From the IMG/VR virus record IMGVR_UViG_3300017783_000023, positions 1 through 57,229 of that record: a stretch of 57,229 bases of DNA. The stretch is one strand, 5' to 3'. The stretch is from a virus. Below are positions 49,107 through 55,905 of the stretch, piece after piece. The position numbers were made by a program, and so were the translations under genes. The notes below the pieces were generated by a model. The model saw only the letters and a list, made by a program, of their open reading frames with translations, ran no database searches and had not been told where the DNA came from. Numbering within the stretch: position 1 is the stretch's first letter; each line of letters starts with the position of its first letter.

Positions 49107-49492
49107 CCATGGCAAATGAAGAAGTGACAGTTGTTGATCTTGCAGAAATTGCAGGTGTTAGCAAAGAGACTACAGCAAATCCTATTGATGGTCTGATTAG
49201 TTTTGATCAGTTGGTAATGAATTTCCTTCAGCAATATGAAGATACTAAAGACGAGTATCGTAAATTGCAAGAAGCATTAGATAACATGCATTATACTTCC
49301 ACGATCACCAAAATCTCACTGGAAGAGTTGCAAACTAAGAGAGATACTTTGAATAAGTTGAGTGGTGCTGTTGAAGCAATGTCACTCTATAAGAGACATG
49401 TTGATCCTAATTGCACTGAGAGAGAGTTTACTTTTCAGGAAGATGTTCCAGCACCAGTAGAGGAAGCACTACCTGCATCTGATGAAAACTGA
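49103..49492 (+). CDS. Coiled-coil hypothetical protein
   Basis: A 129-residue acidic, helical protein with a probable coiled coil (residues 50-95, YEDTKDEYRKLQEALDNMHY). GTG 49103 is preferred because AGAGG (49092-49096) sits at ideal distance and it overlaps the previous stop (GTGA); ATG 49109 is the alternative. It overlaps the next oxygenase gene by 11 nt. Function unknown. Confidence 0.55.
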   Translation: MTMANEEVTVVDLAEIAGVSKETTANPIDGLISFDQLVMNFLQQYEDTKDEYRKLQEALDNMHYTSTITKISLEELQTKRDTLNKLSGAVEAMSLYKRHVDPNCTEREFTFQEDVPAPVEEALPASDEN

Positions 49493-50132
49493 GTTAATAT
49501 TTCCAACACCAATTTGGAAGTTTGATAATGTTGGTATCGATAGAGAAAAACTCATCGATTTCGTTGATGTTGTGAGAACTGAGGATCCCAAAGGTAGAAA
49601 ATCATCTAACGAGGGTGGATGGCAATCGTGGGACTTCATCGATTCAGTGATGGATAACAATCCATTGAAACAACTTAGAAACTCAATCATGGAGCGAGCA
49701 TATGCTGCTGCCGATGAGTTTGGGTTTAATAATTATAGTCTAGGCATGATCAATCTATGGATCAATGTCAATAATAAGGGAGACTTCAACCAACTTCATA
49801 CTCACCCTGGTGGTGTATTGTCTGGTGTATACTATTTAAAACTCCCATCATGCTGTCATGGTAATCTTACATTCGTAAGAGATCTTCAATATACTTTCAT
49901 GAAAGAATTTTGGGGTGACGGTACAAATGTCCATCATTGGGAGGATATGAATAAAGTCGAGCATGATATCTTTCCAGAAGAAGATCAGATGGTGATCTTT
50001 CCAGCATGGTTACCACATACCGTGGGCAAGTCTGCTGGTGAAGGAGATAGAATCTCCATATCATTTAATATAACCGCCTATTCTGATTATTATCATGAGA
50101 TATATCCAAGTAGAAAATCTACTAAGTCCTAG
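49482..50132 (+). CDS. 2OG-Fe(II) oxygenase (PF13759-type)
   Basis: A 216-residue oxygenase. It starts with FPTPIWKFD and has H106-T-H108 (QLHTHPGGVLSG), H179 (AWLPHTVG) and R190 (GDRISISFN), the iron and 2OG ligands of the double-stranded beta-helix. TELIFPTPIW and SGVYYL are typical of the 2OG-FeII_Oxy_5 family, in which the first metal pair reads HxH or HxHP. It uses 2-oxoglutarate and O2 to hydroxylate an unknown substrate. Confidence 0.75.
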   Translation: MKTELIFPTPIWKFDNVGIDREKLIDFVDVVRTEDPKGRKSSNEGGWQSWDFIDSVMDNNPLKQLRNSIMERAYAAADEFGFNNYSLGMINLWINVNNKGDFNQLHTHPGGVLSGVYYLKLPSCCHGNLTFVRDLQYTFMKEFWGDGTNVHHWEDMNKVEHDIFPEEDQMVIFPAWLPHTVGKSAGEGDRISISFNITAYSDYYHEIYPSRKSTKS

Positions 50133-50763
50133 TTATCTCAAGAGATTGCAAGATCTCACGGGTGGTATGAATGGATTCCCATGGTTTTTCTTATCGGAAG
50201 ATATTAGTTTCAGCACTAAAGATAAGTTTGATTCTGATGGCACGTTAGACATACCTCGTGAAATGCCTATACCTGAAGAGCATAAGACTGTGGGGTTTAC
50301 GCATGTGTTAATGGACCAAGATGGGGTGGAGAGTCCATTCTTGCCCACATTCGCCCCACTATTAGACATCGTTGCTGATGCACTTCCTTACCCTGTAGAA
50401 TTCTTTCGAGTGAGACTGGCACTACAGTTAGCAAACGGGAAAGATGCATATAATGGTCCACATACTGATCATGAGACTGATCATTATGCAGCATTATTCT
50501 ATCTCAACGATTCAAGTGGTGATACTGTTTTCTTCCATGAATATGATGATCCTAGTTATGGATCAGTTGATGAGAGATGGGTCAAAGCAACATCTCAACC
50601 ATATAATAAGTTGATGGGTGTAACACCTGAAGCAAATAAGTTGTTTGTATTCAATGGTCATAGATTCCACTCGTCATCTAATCCAACGACTAATCCTTAC
50701 AGGATTATATTAAACCTCAACTTTAGGTGTGAGCATGATTTATTCGATTTTGCAACAACTTGA
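50095..50763 (+). CDS. 2OG-Fe(II) oxygenase, prolyl 4-hydroxylase-like
   Basis: A 222-residue oxygenase overlapping the previous one by 38 nt. The iron and 2OG ligands are H123-T-D125 (GPHTDHETDHYAALFYL), H192 (NGHRFHSSSN) and R203. GDTVFFHE and the C-terminal YRIILNLNFR are typical of the P4H-like fold. Substrate unknown. Confidence 0.7.
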   Translation: MRYIQVENLLSPSYLKRLQDLTGGMNGFPWFFLSEDISFSTKDKFDSDGTLDIPREMPIPEEHKTVGFTHVLMDQDGVESPFLPTFAPLLDIVADALPYPVEFFRVRLALQLANGKDAYNGPHTDHETDHYAALFYLNDSSGDTVFFHEYDDPSYGSVDERWVKATSQPYNKLMGVTPEANKLFVFNGHRFHSSSNPTTNPYRIILNLNFRCEHDLFDFATT

Positions 50764-51427
50764 CAAAGACTGGGCTATTGATGACTCTCCACAATATTGG
50801 GAGGGTATAATTGATGATCCATCATACTATGCCACATGGAAAGATGTTGAGTATTGTATTAACAACCCACAATTCTTCGATCTGCAATTTATAGACAGAA
50901 TTTCTAATGTTTATATAGAGTATCCTATTCATGAAAGGTGTTGGTCACGTCCCACACCTGATGTTAAAGTATTGATGGAAGTCTTTAATGATGGTCACAA
51001 TATTATCATTAATAATTTTGATCAGATTGATACTAAGCGACAGAATATAATGAAGAGTGTTGAAGAAACATTCCCAGAAATTAGATCAGCAATGCACATA
51101 TATGCAGGTCTTAAAGATACCAAATCATTCAAAGTGCATGAAGATTGTGCTAACAACTTTATTATTCAAGTAGAAGGACAAACTCACTGGAGAGTATATA
51201 ATAACAGATGTAGCAATATTGTCGGCAAACGCTTTGATTATCCTGAGCATGACTTTCTAGATTGTGCGATTGATGTTATAATGTCACCAGGTGATATGCT
51301 CTACATTCCTGCTAGATGTTATCATCAAGCACAACCTCATGAGAAGAGACTATCAGTAAGTATACCTATGCAACACATGTATCCCCATTTGAAACCTATG
51401 GATCGGCATTATTATGAAATCAATTAA
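50735..51427 (+). CDS. JmjC-like (cupin) oxygenase
   Basis: A 230-residue protein. ATG 50735 is preferred over GTG 50729 because of AGG at 50725-50727. The site is H135-E-D137 (FKVHEDCANNFIIQVEG) and H197 (IPARCYHQAQP), preceded by IMSPGDMLYIP as in JmjC and ribosomal-protein hydroxylases. It shares its fold with the 33101 protein. It overlaps its neighbours on both sides. It probably hydroxylates a protein or small molecule. Confidence 0.7.
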   Translation: MIYSILQQLDKDWAIDDSPQYWEGIIDDPSYYATWKDVEYCINNPQFFDLQFIDRISNVYIEYPIHERCWSRPTPDVKVLMEVFNDGHNIIINNFDQIDTKRQNIMKSVEETFPEIRSAMHIYAGLKDTKSFKVHEDCANNFIIQVEGQTHWRVYNNRCSNIVGKRFDYPEHDFLDCAIDVIMSPGDMLYIPARCYHQAQPHEKRLSVSIPMQHMYPHLKPMDRHYYEIN

Positions 51428-52028
51428 TCCATTTCCTATCATTCACCGTTGCAAGTATGAGTTTGACTTCAATGAAGTCTTGCAAGGTAAAGTAGATGGA
51501 CATCTTGCTGCGGCAAAGCAACGTATTGAAGAGAATGGTTATAACACACACGAGAAAGGTGGTGGCACTACGAGTGTAGTTATCAATAAGATTGTGCCTC
51601 CTCATGTATGGGATGAGTTTGAAGATTTCAGACCATGGTTATACGAGCGTATCAATCGTGTGTGGGATATGTGGCACTTAGCACCCATGACTAAACATCT
51701 ATCAGACTCATGGATTAATGTACATCCACCAGGTGCATGGACAGCAGAGCATCATCATCAAAATGTCACAGTTGCCATCGCTGCCTATCTGAATGTCCCT
51801 AAAGATAGTGGTAAGTTTATGGTAAAGAATCCATATTCAATGTATAAACTGGGAGAACCACTTGACTATAACTATTATGATCAGAATATGGATTGGGAGT
51901 ATATTGAGGTGAAGACTGGAGATGTGTTATTCTTTCCAGGATGGTTAACACATAAGACTGAAGTTAACAACGGAACTAAAGATAGATATGTTATGAGTAT
52001 GAATGTAATGGGTAACTATGTCACTTAA
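51414..52028 (+). CDS. 2OG-Fe(II) oxygenase (PF13759-like)
   Basis: A 204-residue oxygenase with INVHPPGAWTAEHHHQN (HHH at 113-115), H180 (PGWLTHKTEV) and R191 (DRYVMSMN). KTGDVLFFPGW is the strand before the distal His. It starts inside the previous gene and overlaps the next by 11 nt, so the series is translationally coupled. Confidence 0.7.
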   Translation: MKSINPFPIIHRCKYEFDFNEVLQGKVDGHLAAAKQRIEENGYNTHEKGGGTTSVVINKIVPPHVWDEFEDFRPWLYERINRVWDMWHLAPMTKHLSDSWINVHPPGAWTAEHHHQNVTVAIAAYLNVPKDSGKFMVKNPYSMYKLGEPLDYNYYDQNMDWEYIEVKTGDVLFFPGWLTHKTEVNNGTKDRYVMSMNVMGNYVT

Positions 52029-52725
52029 GATAATCGATACTAATCTCATGAGTTGGGATATGTATGAGCATATTGTACATTTACCTTACAAATTTACTAG
52101 GGTCGATGTGCCACCTACCAAAAATATGCCTGAGATTGACGAGGGTGGATTATATTGGACACATCAATTATATAATTACTGTCCAATTGAAGACCCTGAA
52201 TACTATCAAAACGCAGGACTAGAAGGCAGCGAAGATCCTATCTACAAAGATATACTCTCATATCTTGAAGCGACAATCAGGGATTTCCCACCTAGAGAGA
52301 ATCTCTACTCGGCATATATCAATGTGCTTAGATCAAGAGATGATCCAGGTATTCATTGTGATGCTCCATACTTTGTAGAAGATAATCAGACGGTTGTTGT
52401 ATACTTAAATCATTACTGGAATCCACAATTTGGTGGTGAAACTATATTCTTTGATGAAGATCTAGATGCTCAGCGTATAGTACAACCAAGACCTGGTAGA
52501 GTTATCATCTTTGATGGTAGAATACCACACACAGGTAGACCACCAACGCCCAAGTTTAGACATAATAGATATATTATGTCATTCAAATATATGGATCCAG
52601 CATCACGTAAGAAATTGTTTGTTGACCATGAGATTAACAACATGCCACCAATTGAAGATAGTGGAATAGCAGGATTTCACCCACCTACAGTTAAACAGAT
52701 TTGGAAGAAGATGAATGAAACTTAA
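52018..52725 (+). CDS. 2OG-Fe(II) oxygenase
   Basis: A 235-residue oxygenase with H113-C-D115 (PGIHCDAPYF), H171 (DGRIPHTGRP) and R184 (RYIMSFK). GGETIFFDEDLDAQRIVQP and PGRVIIFDG form the usual beta strands. YLNHYWNPQFGGET resembles the WxxxxGGET motif of P4H-like phage oxygenases. Fourth 2OG-type member of the cluster. Confidence 0.72.
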   Translation: MSLKIIDTNLMSWDMYEHIVHLPYKFTRVDVPPTKNMPEIDEGGLYWTHQLYNYCPIEDPEYYQNAGLEGSEDPIYKDILSYLEATIRDFPPRENLYSAYINVLRSRDDPGIHCDAPYFVEDNQTVVVYLNHYWNPQFGGETIFFDEDLDAQRIVQPRPGRVIIFDGRIPHTGRPPTPKFRHNRYIMSFKYMDPASRKKLFVDHEINNMPPIEDSGIAGFHPPTVKQIWKKMNET

Positions 52726-53233
52726 AGAATGGTTTGATAGAACTGAAGGTCACTGGTTGAGTGAGCGCAGATATATTTTCAATAGTCGTCCTTCAATGAT
52801 GACTAGCAGGATTTATACAGGTCCATTAGAAGAAGAGAGAGTGTCATTAATTCCTGACACTTTTAATGCTGATCTTTTCCTCAAATTCAAGTGGACCACT
52901 ACACATTATGACACCTTGAAGGAAGTTTCTGGTGGTGAAATGTTAGTTGGTGTAAATACTACAGATCACACGATTTACAGGTCTGTCGGTTACATGACTG
53001 ACAAACCAACTGTTACTAACGTAACCATGGTTGATGATGACACAGTTGTGTTGATTACCGAATATGATAATCAACAATTTCGAGAAGAAATTAGACTTTT
53101 GCATAATGATACGGTAAGATTACGTCAGACCGTTGGTTTCTCTGGAGACAGAGTAACTGTCGTTGGTCAGTATTATGAGACTCGCACGGATGATTACGAT
53201 GTTCAACAAGTCAGCAATCCTATCCTCCAATGA
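52715..53233 (+). CDS. cpeS: CpeS/CpcS-like phycobiliprotein lyase
   Basis: A 172-residue lipocalin-like protein: WFDRTEGHWLSERRYIFNS, SRIYTGPLEEERV, LFLKFKWTTTH, VGVNTTDHTIYRSVGYM, EIRLLHNDTVRLRQTVGF and VGQYYETR. The start and the closing RLRQTxGF/VGQYxE segments fit S-type lyases of cyanophages, which attach phycoerythrobilin to phycobiliproteins. It sits between two oxygenases. Together with the CpeT-like gene at 28756 it suggests a phycobilisome-bearing Synechococcus host. The call is by pattern only. Confidence 0.55.
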   Translation: MKLKEWFDRTEGHWLSERRYIFNSRPSMMTSRIYTGPLEEERVSLIPDTFNADLFLKFKWTTTHYDTLKEVSGGEMLVGVNTTDHTIYRSVGYMTDKPTVTNVTMVDDDTVVLITEYDNQQFREEIRLLHNDTVRLRQTVGFSGDRVTVVGQYYETRTDDYDVQQVSNPILQ

Positions 53234-53240
53234 AAAGGGG

Positions 53241-53354
53241 ATGATTAAACAAGCATTGTTTTTATATCAAAAAAACATGTATGAACGGAATGGTGAGTTG
53301 ACACCAACCCAAAAAGATACGATACAAACCATAGTTAATACATTGCATCTATAA
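53241..53354 (+). CDS. Short helical protein
   Basis: A 37-residue ORF from ATG 53241 behind AAAGGGG (53233-53239), an unusually good ribosome site. It reads IKQALFLYQKNMYERNG then LTPTQKDTIQTIVNTL. Helical; unrecognised. Confidence 0.45.
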   Translation: MIKQALFLYQKNMYERNGELTPTQKDTIQTIVNTLHL

Positions 53355-53355
53355 T

Positions 53356-53976
53356 ATGGAAATCTTGCCCCTCTTTGCTCAACCAGTTTATATCGACGTT
53401 GTTGATATGCCAACGGATATAGTAAAGAGAGCAAGCAAGACTGCCATGCAGGATATGGAGTTAGACTCACACTATTCTAAGAATGGTTCAATGTCTGACG
53501 ATACTCAATGGTTATCACACAATCTAGATGTTAAAGACATTGTTGATACTCACATGGACATATATGTGCATGAAGCATTATCAATCAGTCGTAGACATAC
53601 AATACAACATCAATCGTCATGGATTAATTATCATGGCATTGGTGATAGTGCCGCTGAGCATACTCACCCCAACAGTATGTTTAGCGGTTGTTTGTATATT
53701 AAGGTGCCACCCAACTGTGGTGAGTTTCGTCTGAGAATGCCAACAATGTTTCCAACCTACTTGACGAGCACTGTGCAACCTGATATCATGGAGAGCAACT
53801 ACCTCAATCAAAGGGAGTTTCCGATCGAACCATGTGATGGCACTATTATTATCTTTCCTTCACATCTACCTCACTATGTCTCACCCTCAGAGACTGAAGA
53901 TGATAGATACTCATGCGCCTTTAATTATTTCCTAAAAGGCACATTTGGAAGGGAAGACACTGCTTTGACTCTATGA
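53356..53976 (+). CDS. 2OG-Fe(II) oxygenase (PF13759-type)
   Basis: A 206-residue oxygenase starting MEILPLFAQPVYIDV. It has H102-T-H104 (AEHTHPNSMFSGCLYI), H173 (SHLPHYVSP) and R184 (DDRYSCAFNYF). The layout matches the 49482 protein, so the two may be distant paralogs. It ends the oxygenase run and overlaps the next gene by ATGA. Confidence 0.72.
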   Translation: MEILPLFAQPVYIDVVDMPTDIVKRASKTAMQDMELDSHYSKNGSMSDDTQWLSHNLDVKDIVDTHMDIYVHEALSISRRHTIQHQSSWINYHGIGDSAAEHTHPNSMFSGCLYIKVPPNCGEFRLRMPTMFPTYLTSTVQPDIMESNYLNQREFPIEPCDGTIIIFPSHLPHYVSPSETEDDRYSCAFNYFLKGTFGREDTALTL

Positions 53977-54309: not shown

Positions 54310-54336
54310 ACAGTTGGTCAAAGTGTCCACTGTTTT
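54310..54336 (+). terminator. Weak terminator-like hairpin
   Basis: ACAG (54310-54313) pairs with CTGT (54330-54333), and TGG with CCA, around a bulged T and a 9-nt loop; TTTT follows. It lies between the oxygenase island and the next promoter. The stem is short, so confidence is low. Confidence 0.35.
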
Positions 54337-54364
54337 GCCACTACATGCAAAAATGCTCTATATT
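54335..54364 (+). promoter_or_regulatory. sigma70-type promoter for the endonuclease-methylase pair
   Basis: TTGCCA (54335-54340), 18 nt, TATATT (54359-54364): five of six matches in each hexamer. A start near 54371 would exclude the in-frame ATG at 54345 and supports ATG 54393. Confidence 0.6.
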
Positions 54365-54392
54365 AAGGGAGTTGAAAGCACTGCACCCAATC

Positions 54393-55073
54393 ATGGACAA
54401 CACTATTTCCTTTGAGCGTTGCGTCGAAATCATCAATAACGAAATCTATGCTGAAGTGCAACTAACTGTTGATGACTATCGTACATCAGCACGTCGCCCT
54501 ACTGCACTTCGTAAATCTGATATTACGTTTGAATCATATCTAAAATCATTTGAAACTGACGAGAAGCAGAAGACACAAACAGTCACTAAGTTTCTCCAGT
54601 ATTGGTTTGCTGAAGCATTATCAATCATCATCGATCGTTATAACTTACCGATTGTTGATGGTTGTGGTGCTGGTCAGGATTATGCCTACGTTGGTAACTC
54701 ATACCAAGGCAAAACAATCACTAAACCTATGCCAATTGAGTATAAGTCTGCTGGCGGTAAGGATGGGTCATCAGCATGTCTTGGCAACCTAGGTGTTAAT
54801 GTGAAATGCGAATTGACCCTTGTTTGTCGTTACAAACTCGAAGGCAATCGTATCAGTGAGCGTCAGACTCTCACGATTGAAAACTCTGCTTACAAGTGGA
54901 AAGCATACAACAAAGGTAAGTTTGATCCTAAGACTGGTGAGTCTAAGTCTTCTAACTTCAGTGGATTGCGCTGCATGACTAACAGTGACTATCAGGATAT
55001 TGTGTGCTATTCTGGTAGACTGAAGAAGAATTCTACTTGGGTCAAATTCATTAAAGAAACAATCAATGCTTGA
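54393..55073 (+). CDS. Candidate restriction endonuclease (PD-(D/E)XK type)
   Basis: A 226-residue protein from ATG 54393; an ATG at 54345 is in frame but lies upstream of the predicted transcription start. Helices around FLQYWFAEALSIIIDRY precede GAGQDYAYV with D96, and E116-Y-K118 (MPIEYKSA) completes a D-(20)-ExK active site as in type II restriction enzymes. GSSACLGN and a beta-rich C-terminal half follow. It overlaps the methyltransferase gene by 8 nt under one early-type promoter. I do not recognise a specific restriction family. A different nuclease, or a non-nuclease partner of the methylase, is possible. Confidence 0.5.
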   Translation: MDNTISFERCVEIINNEIYAEVQLTVDDYRTSARRPTALRKSDITFESYLKSFETDEKQKTQTVTKFLQYWFAEALSIIIDRYNLPIVDGCGAGQDYAYVGNSYQGKTITKPMPIEYKSAGGKDGSSACLGNLGVNVKCELTLVCRYKLEGNRISERQTLTIENSAYKWKAYNKGKFDPKTGESKSSNFSGLRCMTNSDYQDIVCYSGRLKKNSTWVKFIKETINA

Positions 55074-55905
55074 TATTAACACCACACACTTGATGAGTTG
55101 TATTGATGGGATGCAACTCATGGACGCTGAGAGTGTCGATCTAGTCGTCACATCTCCTCCCTACGATGATCTCAGGACTTACAATGACAGCAGTCAATGG
55201 GATCACAACGTCTTTAAAGAGGTTGCTACTTGTCTAGTAAGGGTGCTAAAACCTGGTGGTGTTATTATGTGGAATGTCAATGATTCCACAGTCAAAGGAT
55301 CAGAGACTGGTAGTAGTTTCAGACAATGCTTACATTTTATGGACGCACATGGTCTGAGACTACATGACACCATGATATATGAGAAGACAGGCACTGCCTT
55401 CGCATCTGGTCCTAATAGTGTTAGATATACTCAAATCTTTGAGTATTGTTTCATACTATCCAAAGGCAAACCTAAGACGATTAATCTTATTCAAGACAAG
55501 AAGAATAAGTGGGCAGGGTATACCTCGTTTGGCAATGCTGTGACGAGGAAGAAAGATGGCACCTTCTTGGACCCTGGTAAGAAGAGCAAAGAGATCAAAG
55601 AATGGGGTGTCAGGACTAACATATGGAGGATCAAAAATAGTGGTGGATTCGGTCAATCATCCAAGGTAAGTTACAAACATCCTGCCACTATGCCTGAAGA
55701 GTTAGCAACAGGGCACGTATTAACGTGGTCTGATGAGAAAGACTTAATTCTTGATCCTTTCATGGGTGCTGGCACTACTGCCCAGGTCTGCTGCGAAAAC
55801 AATCGCAATTTTATCGGTTTTGAGATAGATGACACATACCACCAAATGTGTGTCGATCGTGTGCTACCATGGCAAGACAACGTACTCACCAGACTCAATG
55901 ATTGA
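55066..55905 (+). CDS. DNA methyltransferase, N4-cytosine/N6-adenine beta-class
   Basis: A 279-residue methylase. Motif IV TSPPYDDL is at residues 29-36, the SAM-binding motif I DPFMGAGTT at 230-238, and HPATMPEELA (205-214) lies between. The order IV before I marks the beta group (PF01555); SPPY is common in N4-cytosine and some N6-adenine enzymes. It would protect phage DNA or methylate host sites. It is coupled to the preceding nuclease-like gene (8-nt overlap) and to the next gene (8-nt overlap). Confidence 0.85.
   Translation: MLDINTTHLMSCIDGMQLMDAESVDLVVTSPPYDDLRTYNDSSQWDHNVFKEVATCLVRVLKPGGVIMWNVNDSTVKGSETGSSFRQCLHFMDAHGLRLHDTMIYEKTGTAFASGPNSVRYTQIFEYCFILSKGKPKTINLIQDKKNKWAGYTSFGNAVTRKKDGTFLDPGKKSKEIKEWGVRTNIWRIKNSGGFGQSSKVSYKHPATMPEELATGHVLTWSDEKDLILDPFMGAGTTAQVCCENNRNFIGFEIDDTYHQMCVDRVLPWQDNVLTRLND

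Follow-up and report, generated by a model that had tools for sequence, protein, structure and literature searches.

Chloroviruses are lytic viruses that encode type II restriction-modification (R-M) systems, each consisting of a nuclease and an adjacent methylase, and their R-M nucleases degrade host DNA (PMC7019647, PMC7253447). Phage T4 also relies on self/non-self discrimination that permits breakdown of host DNA, in this case using EndoII (denA), EndoIV (denB) and hydroxymethylcytosine. Cyanomyoviruses have no denA, denB or ndd and give no sign of such modified nucleotides, and a review leaves room for an 'as yet un-described method' by which these phages break down host DNA (PMC2984593).

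We analysed a 57-kb virus record (57,229 nt; 'the window' refers to this whole stretch of DNA) of the T4-like cyanophage type, with gp32-like, gp53-like and tail tube genes. The structural stretch of the window is matched by 171 records; the matches are to cyanophages only, the best being P-TIM40, P-RSM6, S-SZBM1 and S-WAM1. The window carries two overlapping genes that we consider, with a probability of about 0.8, to be a phage type II R-M system comprising an EcoRV-like PD-(D/E)XK nuclease and a beta-class, probably N4-cytosine, methylase. Catalysis, specificity, the methylated base and the role of the pair are presented below as we infer them. The pair is a putative recurrent and unnamed virus-borne type II R-M system that is analogous to those of chloroviruses, which infect eukaryotic algae and package their nucleases in virions. 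The comparison with T4 differs in that T4 uses base replacement, whereas the window pair is predicted to use site-specific methylation.

The same two-gene overlapping locus is present in Syn9 (gp61/gp62), Syn10, S-MbCM6, S-RIM4, S-H35, S-MS29 and P-TIM40, where the upstream proteins are ~17–25% identical to that of the window and are annotated as hypothetical or gp61. No R-M pair is claimed in the records of these phages, and we found no paper in the open-access literature that names the pair as R-M; Sullivan et al. list an N6A-methylase gene (PMC3037559). Another small gene of T4-like cyanophages, annotated as 'restriction endonuclease II' (S-H38, S-RSM4, ACG-2014e, ACG-2014i, P-SSM4 and P-SSM3), takes this name from RefSeq only, and its products are non-homologous to the window nuclease, whose family was not found in S-H38 or P-SSM4. 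In S-H38 (L183:9170-10736), the 'restriction endonuclease II' gene overlaps a weakly Eco57I methylase-like gene and has homologues in 16 phage records. S-H38 has 3 AGCT sites in 50 kb where 96 are expected, and P-SSM4 has 0 GCGC sites in 50 kb where 16 are expected; the scarcity of these words suggests that cyanophages may harbour several types of R-M system.

The gene pair and its promoter

The first gene (positions 54393–55073; all features described here are on the + strand) encodes a putative PD-(D/E)XK restriction endonuclease of 226 aa that is a remote homologue of Syn9 gp61 and phrog_11812. The longest possible ORF starts at 54345 (242 aa); however, the −10 box of the promoter described below lies downstream of the 54345 ATG, and we therefore favour the start at 54393. 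The codon of the presumed catalytic Asp, D96, is at 54678–54680, and the codons of the candidate (D/E)XK motif, E116-Y117-K118, span 54738–54746 (E116, 54738–54740; K118, 54744–54746). The nuclease stop and the methylase start overlap by 8 nt (55066–55073), and similar overlaps are found at most homologous loci, an arrangement that makes translational coupling likely. A preliminary description of this DNA had noted D96, E116-Y-K118 and the 8-nt overlap, and the ORF translations agree with it on each of these points. Immediately 5′ of the pair (positions 49482–53976 of the window) lies a series of genes of the 2OG-Fe(II) oxygenase and JmjC-like kinds, in which four ORFs have Pfam matches.

The second gene (55066–55905) encodes a complete DNA methyltransferase of 279 aa (P0002) that matches PF01555 (1.9e-38) and phrog_67. 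Motif IV, SPPY (residues 30–33; 55153–55164), precedes motif I, DPFMGAGTT (residues 230–238; 55753–55779), which is the beta-class order of N6_N4_Mtase enzymes; the match and the motif order confirm the earlier description of a complete beta-class enzyme. The methylase is 79–85% identical to Syn9 gp62 and its relatives, in 17 isolate records. The GenBank labels of these relatives read N6A or DNA methylase; the closest solved chains are named cytosine-N4 methyltransferase and, together with the SPPY motif, suggest that the enzyme probably modifies N4 of cytosine.

A sigma70-like early-type promoter, TTGCCA-18-TATATT (54335–54364; 10/12 match), lies upstream of the nuclease gene. Considered alone, this site does not exceed chance expectation (6 sites, compared with 6.8 expected). 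We therefore rely on the homologous loci, where sites matching at 10 or more of the 12 positions occur in 22 of 38 distinct regions upstream of the nuclease gene, as compared to 0.9 (maximum 4) in shuffled sequences, and most of these sites end 21–30 nt 5′ of the nuclease ATG. The conservation of both strength and position across homologous loci makes an early-type promoter credible. Hence, the promoter placed before the pair in the preliminary description is upheld by related loci and not by the single site.

Predicted fold and conservation of the nuclease

Single-sequence searches with the nuclease gave no match in Pfam, NCBIfam, PDB sequences or phage tblastn, and comparison with restriction-enzyme profiles (Pfam, NCBIfam, PADLOC) gave no credible match. 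The only profile match, obtained for 32 of 42 relatives, was phrog_11812, which carries a function-unknown label. Distant relatives were reached only by stepping from methylase homologues to the adjoining upstream gene: at every isolate methylase locus inspected, the upstream hypothetical gene, which mostly overlaps the methylase gene, is a remote nuclease homologue. An alignment of 42 mixed rows proved too diverse to be scanned for patterns and was set aside. Among 61 distinct homologues, with identities to the window protein as low as 17%, residues K66, G94, D96, E116, K118, G131, N132, K138 and G208 are invariant. Variation at D96, E116 or K118, which had been named earlier as evidence that would count against the nuclease, is thus not seen. 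dN/dS is 0.15–0.19 for the window copy compared with its relatives and 0.11–0.22 over all pairs, indicating purifying selection. The existence of homologues at other loci, the dN/dS of the window copy and the invariance of the catalytic residues indicate that the locus is more than a chance ORF beside a methylase.

AlphaFold models of the window protein (pLDDT 90.7) and the Syn9 protein (pLDDT 90.9) both show three core strands after a long helix, an arrangement that corresponds to the alpha-beta-beta-beta core of PD-(D/E)XK enzymes. In the window model, D96 opens the second core strand (residues 95–99), and E116 and K118 are on the third (residues 113–120). A Foldseek search of the PDB with the window model listed EcoRV, NaeI and PvuII; with the Syn9 model, the top 25 matches were nearly exclusively SwaI and EcoRV, with probabilities up to 0.94, and I-Ssp6803I appeared further down the list. 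None of the E-values was below 1e-3 (best ~7e-3) and TM-scores were low (~0.26–0.37), so we regard the matches as support rather than proof. EcoRV and SwaI, the best matches, are type IIP PD-(D/E)XK enzymes that are similar to the window nuclease in size and in their D...ExK site, although they have no detectable sequence similarity to it. Hence, the models support a PD-(D/E)XK-like fold for the 226-aa protein. A different fold had been proposed beforehand as grounds for abandoning the assignment, but the predicted models are PD-(D/E)XK-like and type II enzymes lead the Foldseek matches. The profile and structure search suggested at the same time gave a divided answer: its structural arm returned restriction enzymes (EcoRV, SwaI, NaeI and PvuII), whereas its profile arm did not. 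With the predicted fold, the invariant residues and the co-occurrence with a methylase described below, the nuclease call no longer depends on a motif only.

Co-occurrence of nuclease and methylase genes and possible exchange of nucleases

Of the 80 methylase loci that ranked best among viral contigs, 68 have a nuclease gene adjoining the methylase gene on its upstream side; BLAST connects these nucleases and the window protein into a single cluster. At 5 further loci the nuclease is elsewhere on the contig, ~8 kb away where measured; the 7 loci lacking a nuclease comprise four contigs of 4.9–30 kb and three distant methylases (56–61% identical). Conversely, the methylase adjoins the nuclease at 64 of 74 nuclease loci, and the remainder include one locus with the methylase 8 kb away and one at a contig end. 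The nuclease was found on all 35 of 35 carrier contigs, and the two genes occur in the same 17 isolate records, Syn9 (gp61/gp62) among them. The genes are co-located and co-inherited, as is required of a type II R-M system. The preliminary description had recognized that a methylase occurring mostly by itself would weaken its case, and the counts above show the opposite; its proposal of a type II R-M unit is supported by this co-occurrence together with the fold and the invariant residues. Its suggestion that such a unit would be unusual in a T4-like cyanophage did not survive, since no fewer than 17 isolate records, and many contigs from metagenomes, carry the pair.

The nucleases fall into three subtypes that are ~17–25% identical to one another: A (window), B (Syn9 and P-TIM40) and C (others). 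The methylase remains conserved across these subtypes, as does its target-recognition region (approximately 55423–55680 in the window). The nuclease subtypes are found with different methylase clades, and the nucleases of the window and locus L008 share 95% identity, with a dS of 0.18, whereas dS for the adjoining methylases is 0.94. Nucleases thus seem to have been swapped between phages, while the methylases of these phages retain a single specificity.

Several loci depart from the usual arrangement. In L091, the ORF 5′ of a 57% identical methylase encodes 231 aa, is not homologous to the nuclease and contains a GGDM...YEIKTG motif; it may represent a further nuclease family that partners this kind of methylase. 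A second beta-class methylase is found just 5′ of the nuclease (M2-R-M1) in six contigs (L102:3001-5430, L039, L043, L047, L048, L049 and L088; the full order was read in L102), and in the M2-R-M1 contigs avoidance of GAAC, described below, is weaker and that of GTAC is slight. In L162 (1461-1988), a nuclease homologue is apparently frameshifted, with GN changed to AN, and no methylase was found on the contig. A scan of genome contigs identified the nuclease in one contig only, from a Euryarchaeota MAG, and revealed no cellular ancestor; this contig (L092; PAZU01000043.1) encodes the nuclease together with a methylase of 79% identity, and is probably a mis-binned cyanophage contig.

Avoidance of GAAC and the proposed role of the pair

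Carriers of the pair avoid the tetranucleotide GAAC. The observed/expected ratio of GAAC/GTTC has a median of 0.21 and a maximum of 0.70 in 41 carriers, corresponding to ~fivefold depletion, as compared to a median of 0.98 (range 0.84–1.15) in 15 non-carriers; the carrier status of isolates was checked on whole records. GAAC is the sole tetranucleotide of 136 that fully separates carriers from non-carriers (p about 1e-8), but this p-value overstates the evidence, since 2–3 changes on the terminase tree suffice to explain low GAAC and only two contrasts are independent; both of these point the expected way. The loss is seen on both strands, with all flanking bases and in lineages with all three nuclease subtypes. 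GTAC is also reduced, to 0.29 in carriers versus 0.66 in non-carriers. GAAC has a bimodal distribution over 119 loci anchored on terminase (33 low and 86 high), and GTAC drops alongside GAAC, whereas GATC does not. GAAC is non-palindromic, and GATC, which is part of any GWWC site, is undepleted in most carriers. Reduction of both GAAC and GTAC in carriers suggests that the target most likely contains GAAC/GTTC, and is perhaps GWAC/GTWC or GWWC; these word counts also suggest self-restriction as the force behind the loss of GAAC.

Three other treatments of the word counts were abandoned. GTAC alone had emerged as the site from a palindrome-only scan, and was dropped because GAAC is stronger over all 136 tetranucleotides. 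Decay of methylcytosine by C-to-T change was rejected as the cause of GAAC loss, since GAAT is not specially enriched. A comparison of word bias between short R-M loci and terminase loci was set aside because their gene content differs.

GATC is nearly gone in carriers L068, L070 and L044 (1/68, 7/83 and 10/94, respectively) and less so in L064. The partial contigs of L068, L070 and L044 contain no Dam above the curated cut-off; Dam is present in all five of five carrier isolates tested. We speculate that the GATC loss in these carriers would fit a GWWC site if Dam shields GATC elsewhere.

The target assignment would be undermined if GAAC depletion were a mutational or codon-usage trait of particular clades, unrelated to the pair, a possibility that bears on the target and not on the identity of the R-M system. 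The small number of changes on the terminase tree is compatible with such a trait, but we think it unlikely, given a fivefold loss of one tetranucleotide on both strands, in all contexts and in lineages with three nuclease subtypes, with no concentration of the gain in GAAT of the kind that a C-to-T process would produce. Moreover, GAAC depletion is absent from P-RSM6, S-SZBM1 and S-WAM1, three of the four phages (the fourth being P-TIM40) that match the structural genes of the window best. Word avoidance also bears on whether the methylase is instead a shield against a host enzyme of the same specificity, with the upstream protein a non-nuclease accessory. Other phages commonly carry relatives of the methylase that stand alone, and the non-carrier Syn1 (L318, 60000-109999) has 0 GTAC sites where ~165 are expected, so that forces other than the pair must act on GTAC. 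Nevertheless, a shield should relax avoidance, yet GAAC is avoided most by carriers, and the D...ExK site of the upstream protein is invariant and its predicted fold resembles that of restriction enzymes; we consider a shield improbable. A PD-(D/E)XK homing or mobility nuclease similar to I-Ssp6803I, merely located beside a methylase, is more improbable still: the lower-ranked Foldseek match and the partly separate histories of the two genes would be accommodated, but the near-strict co-occurrence with one methylase family, even at ~8 kb, and the genome-wide loss of a 4-base word, which fits a frequent cutter rather than a long-site enzyme, would not.

We therefore return to a type II R-M system. 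The overlapping genes would form one early-type operon from which both enzymes are made. Virion DNA would arrive methylated from the previous round of infection, and the nuclease, made early, would cut unmethylated DNA, chiefly the host chromosome, while the methylase would mark new phage DNA and so spare the progeny. We infer that the nuclease-first gene order is tolerable because incoming phage DNA is already marked. Host DNA is broken down within hours by the carrier Syn9 and is also degraded by P-HM2 (PMC7852597). The pair was not found in the whole P-HM2 record, indicating that it is not the sole route to host DNA breakdown. Tentatively, and at somewhat less than even odds, we propose that this unnamed, widespread cyanophage R-M family replaces the endonuclease and hydroxymethylcytosine machinery of T4: it would methylate a GAAC-containing site, perhaps GWAC/GTWC or GWWC with GATC protected by phage Dam, and break down the host chromosome, and would act strongly enough to have purged its own site from the genomes that carry it.

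Alternatively, the pair may be a genuine R-M system that serves mainly to exclude competing phages from the infected cell rather than to destroy host DNA. A marseillevirus R-M system degrades the DNA of viruses that lack it and spares host DNA (PMC7253447), and the module is patchy among cyanophages, with 17 carrier records compared to 171 that match the structural stretch. If carriers were a common threat, however, non-carriers would be expected to avoid GAAC, and they do not; this argues mildly against a dominant role in competition, which we regard as possible but on the whole doubtful.

Under the R-M reading, phrog_11812 gains a likely function, and loss of GAAC provides a genome signature that would flag likely carriers in metagenomes. 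The presence of the pair in cultured lytic phages makes the question of how cyanophages break down host DNA testable.
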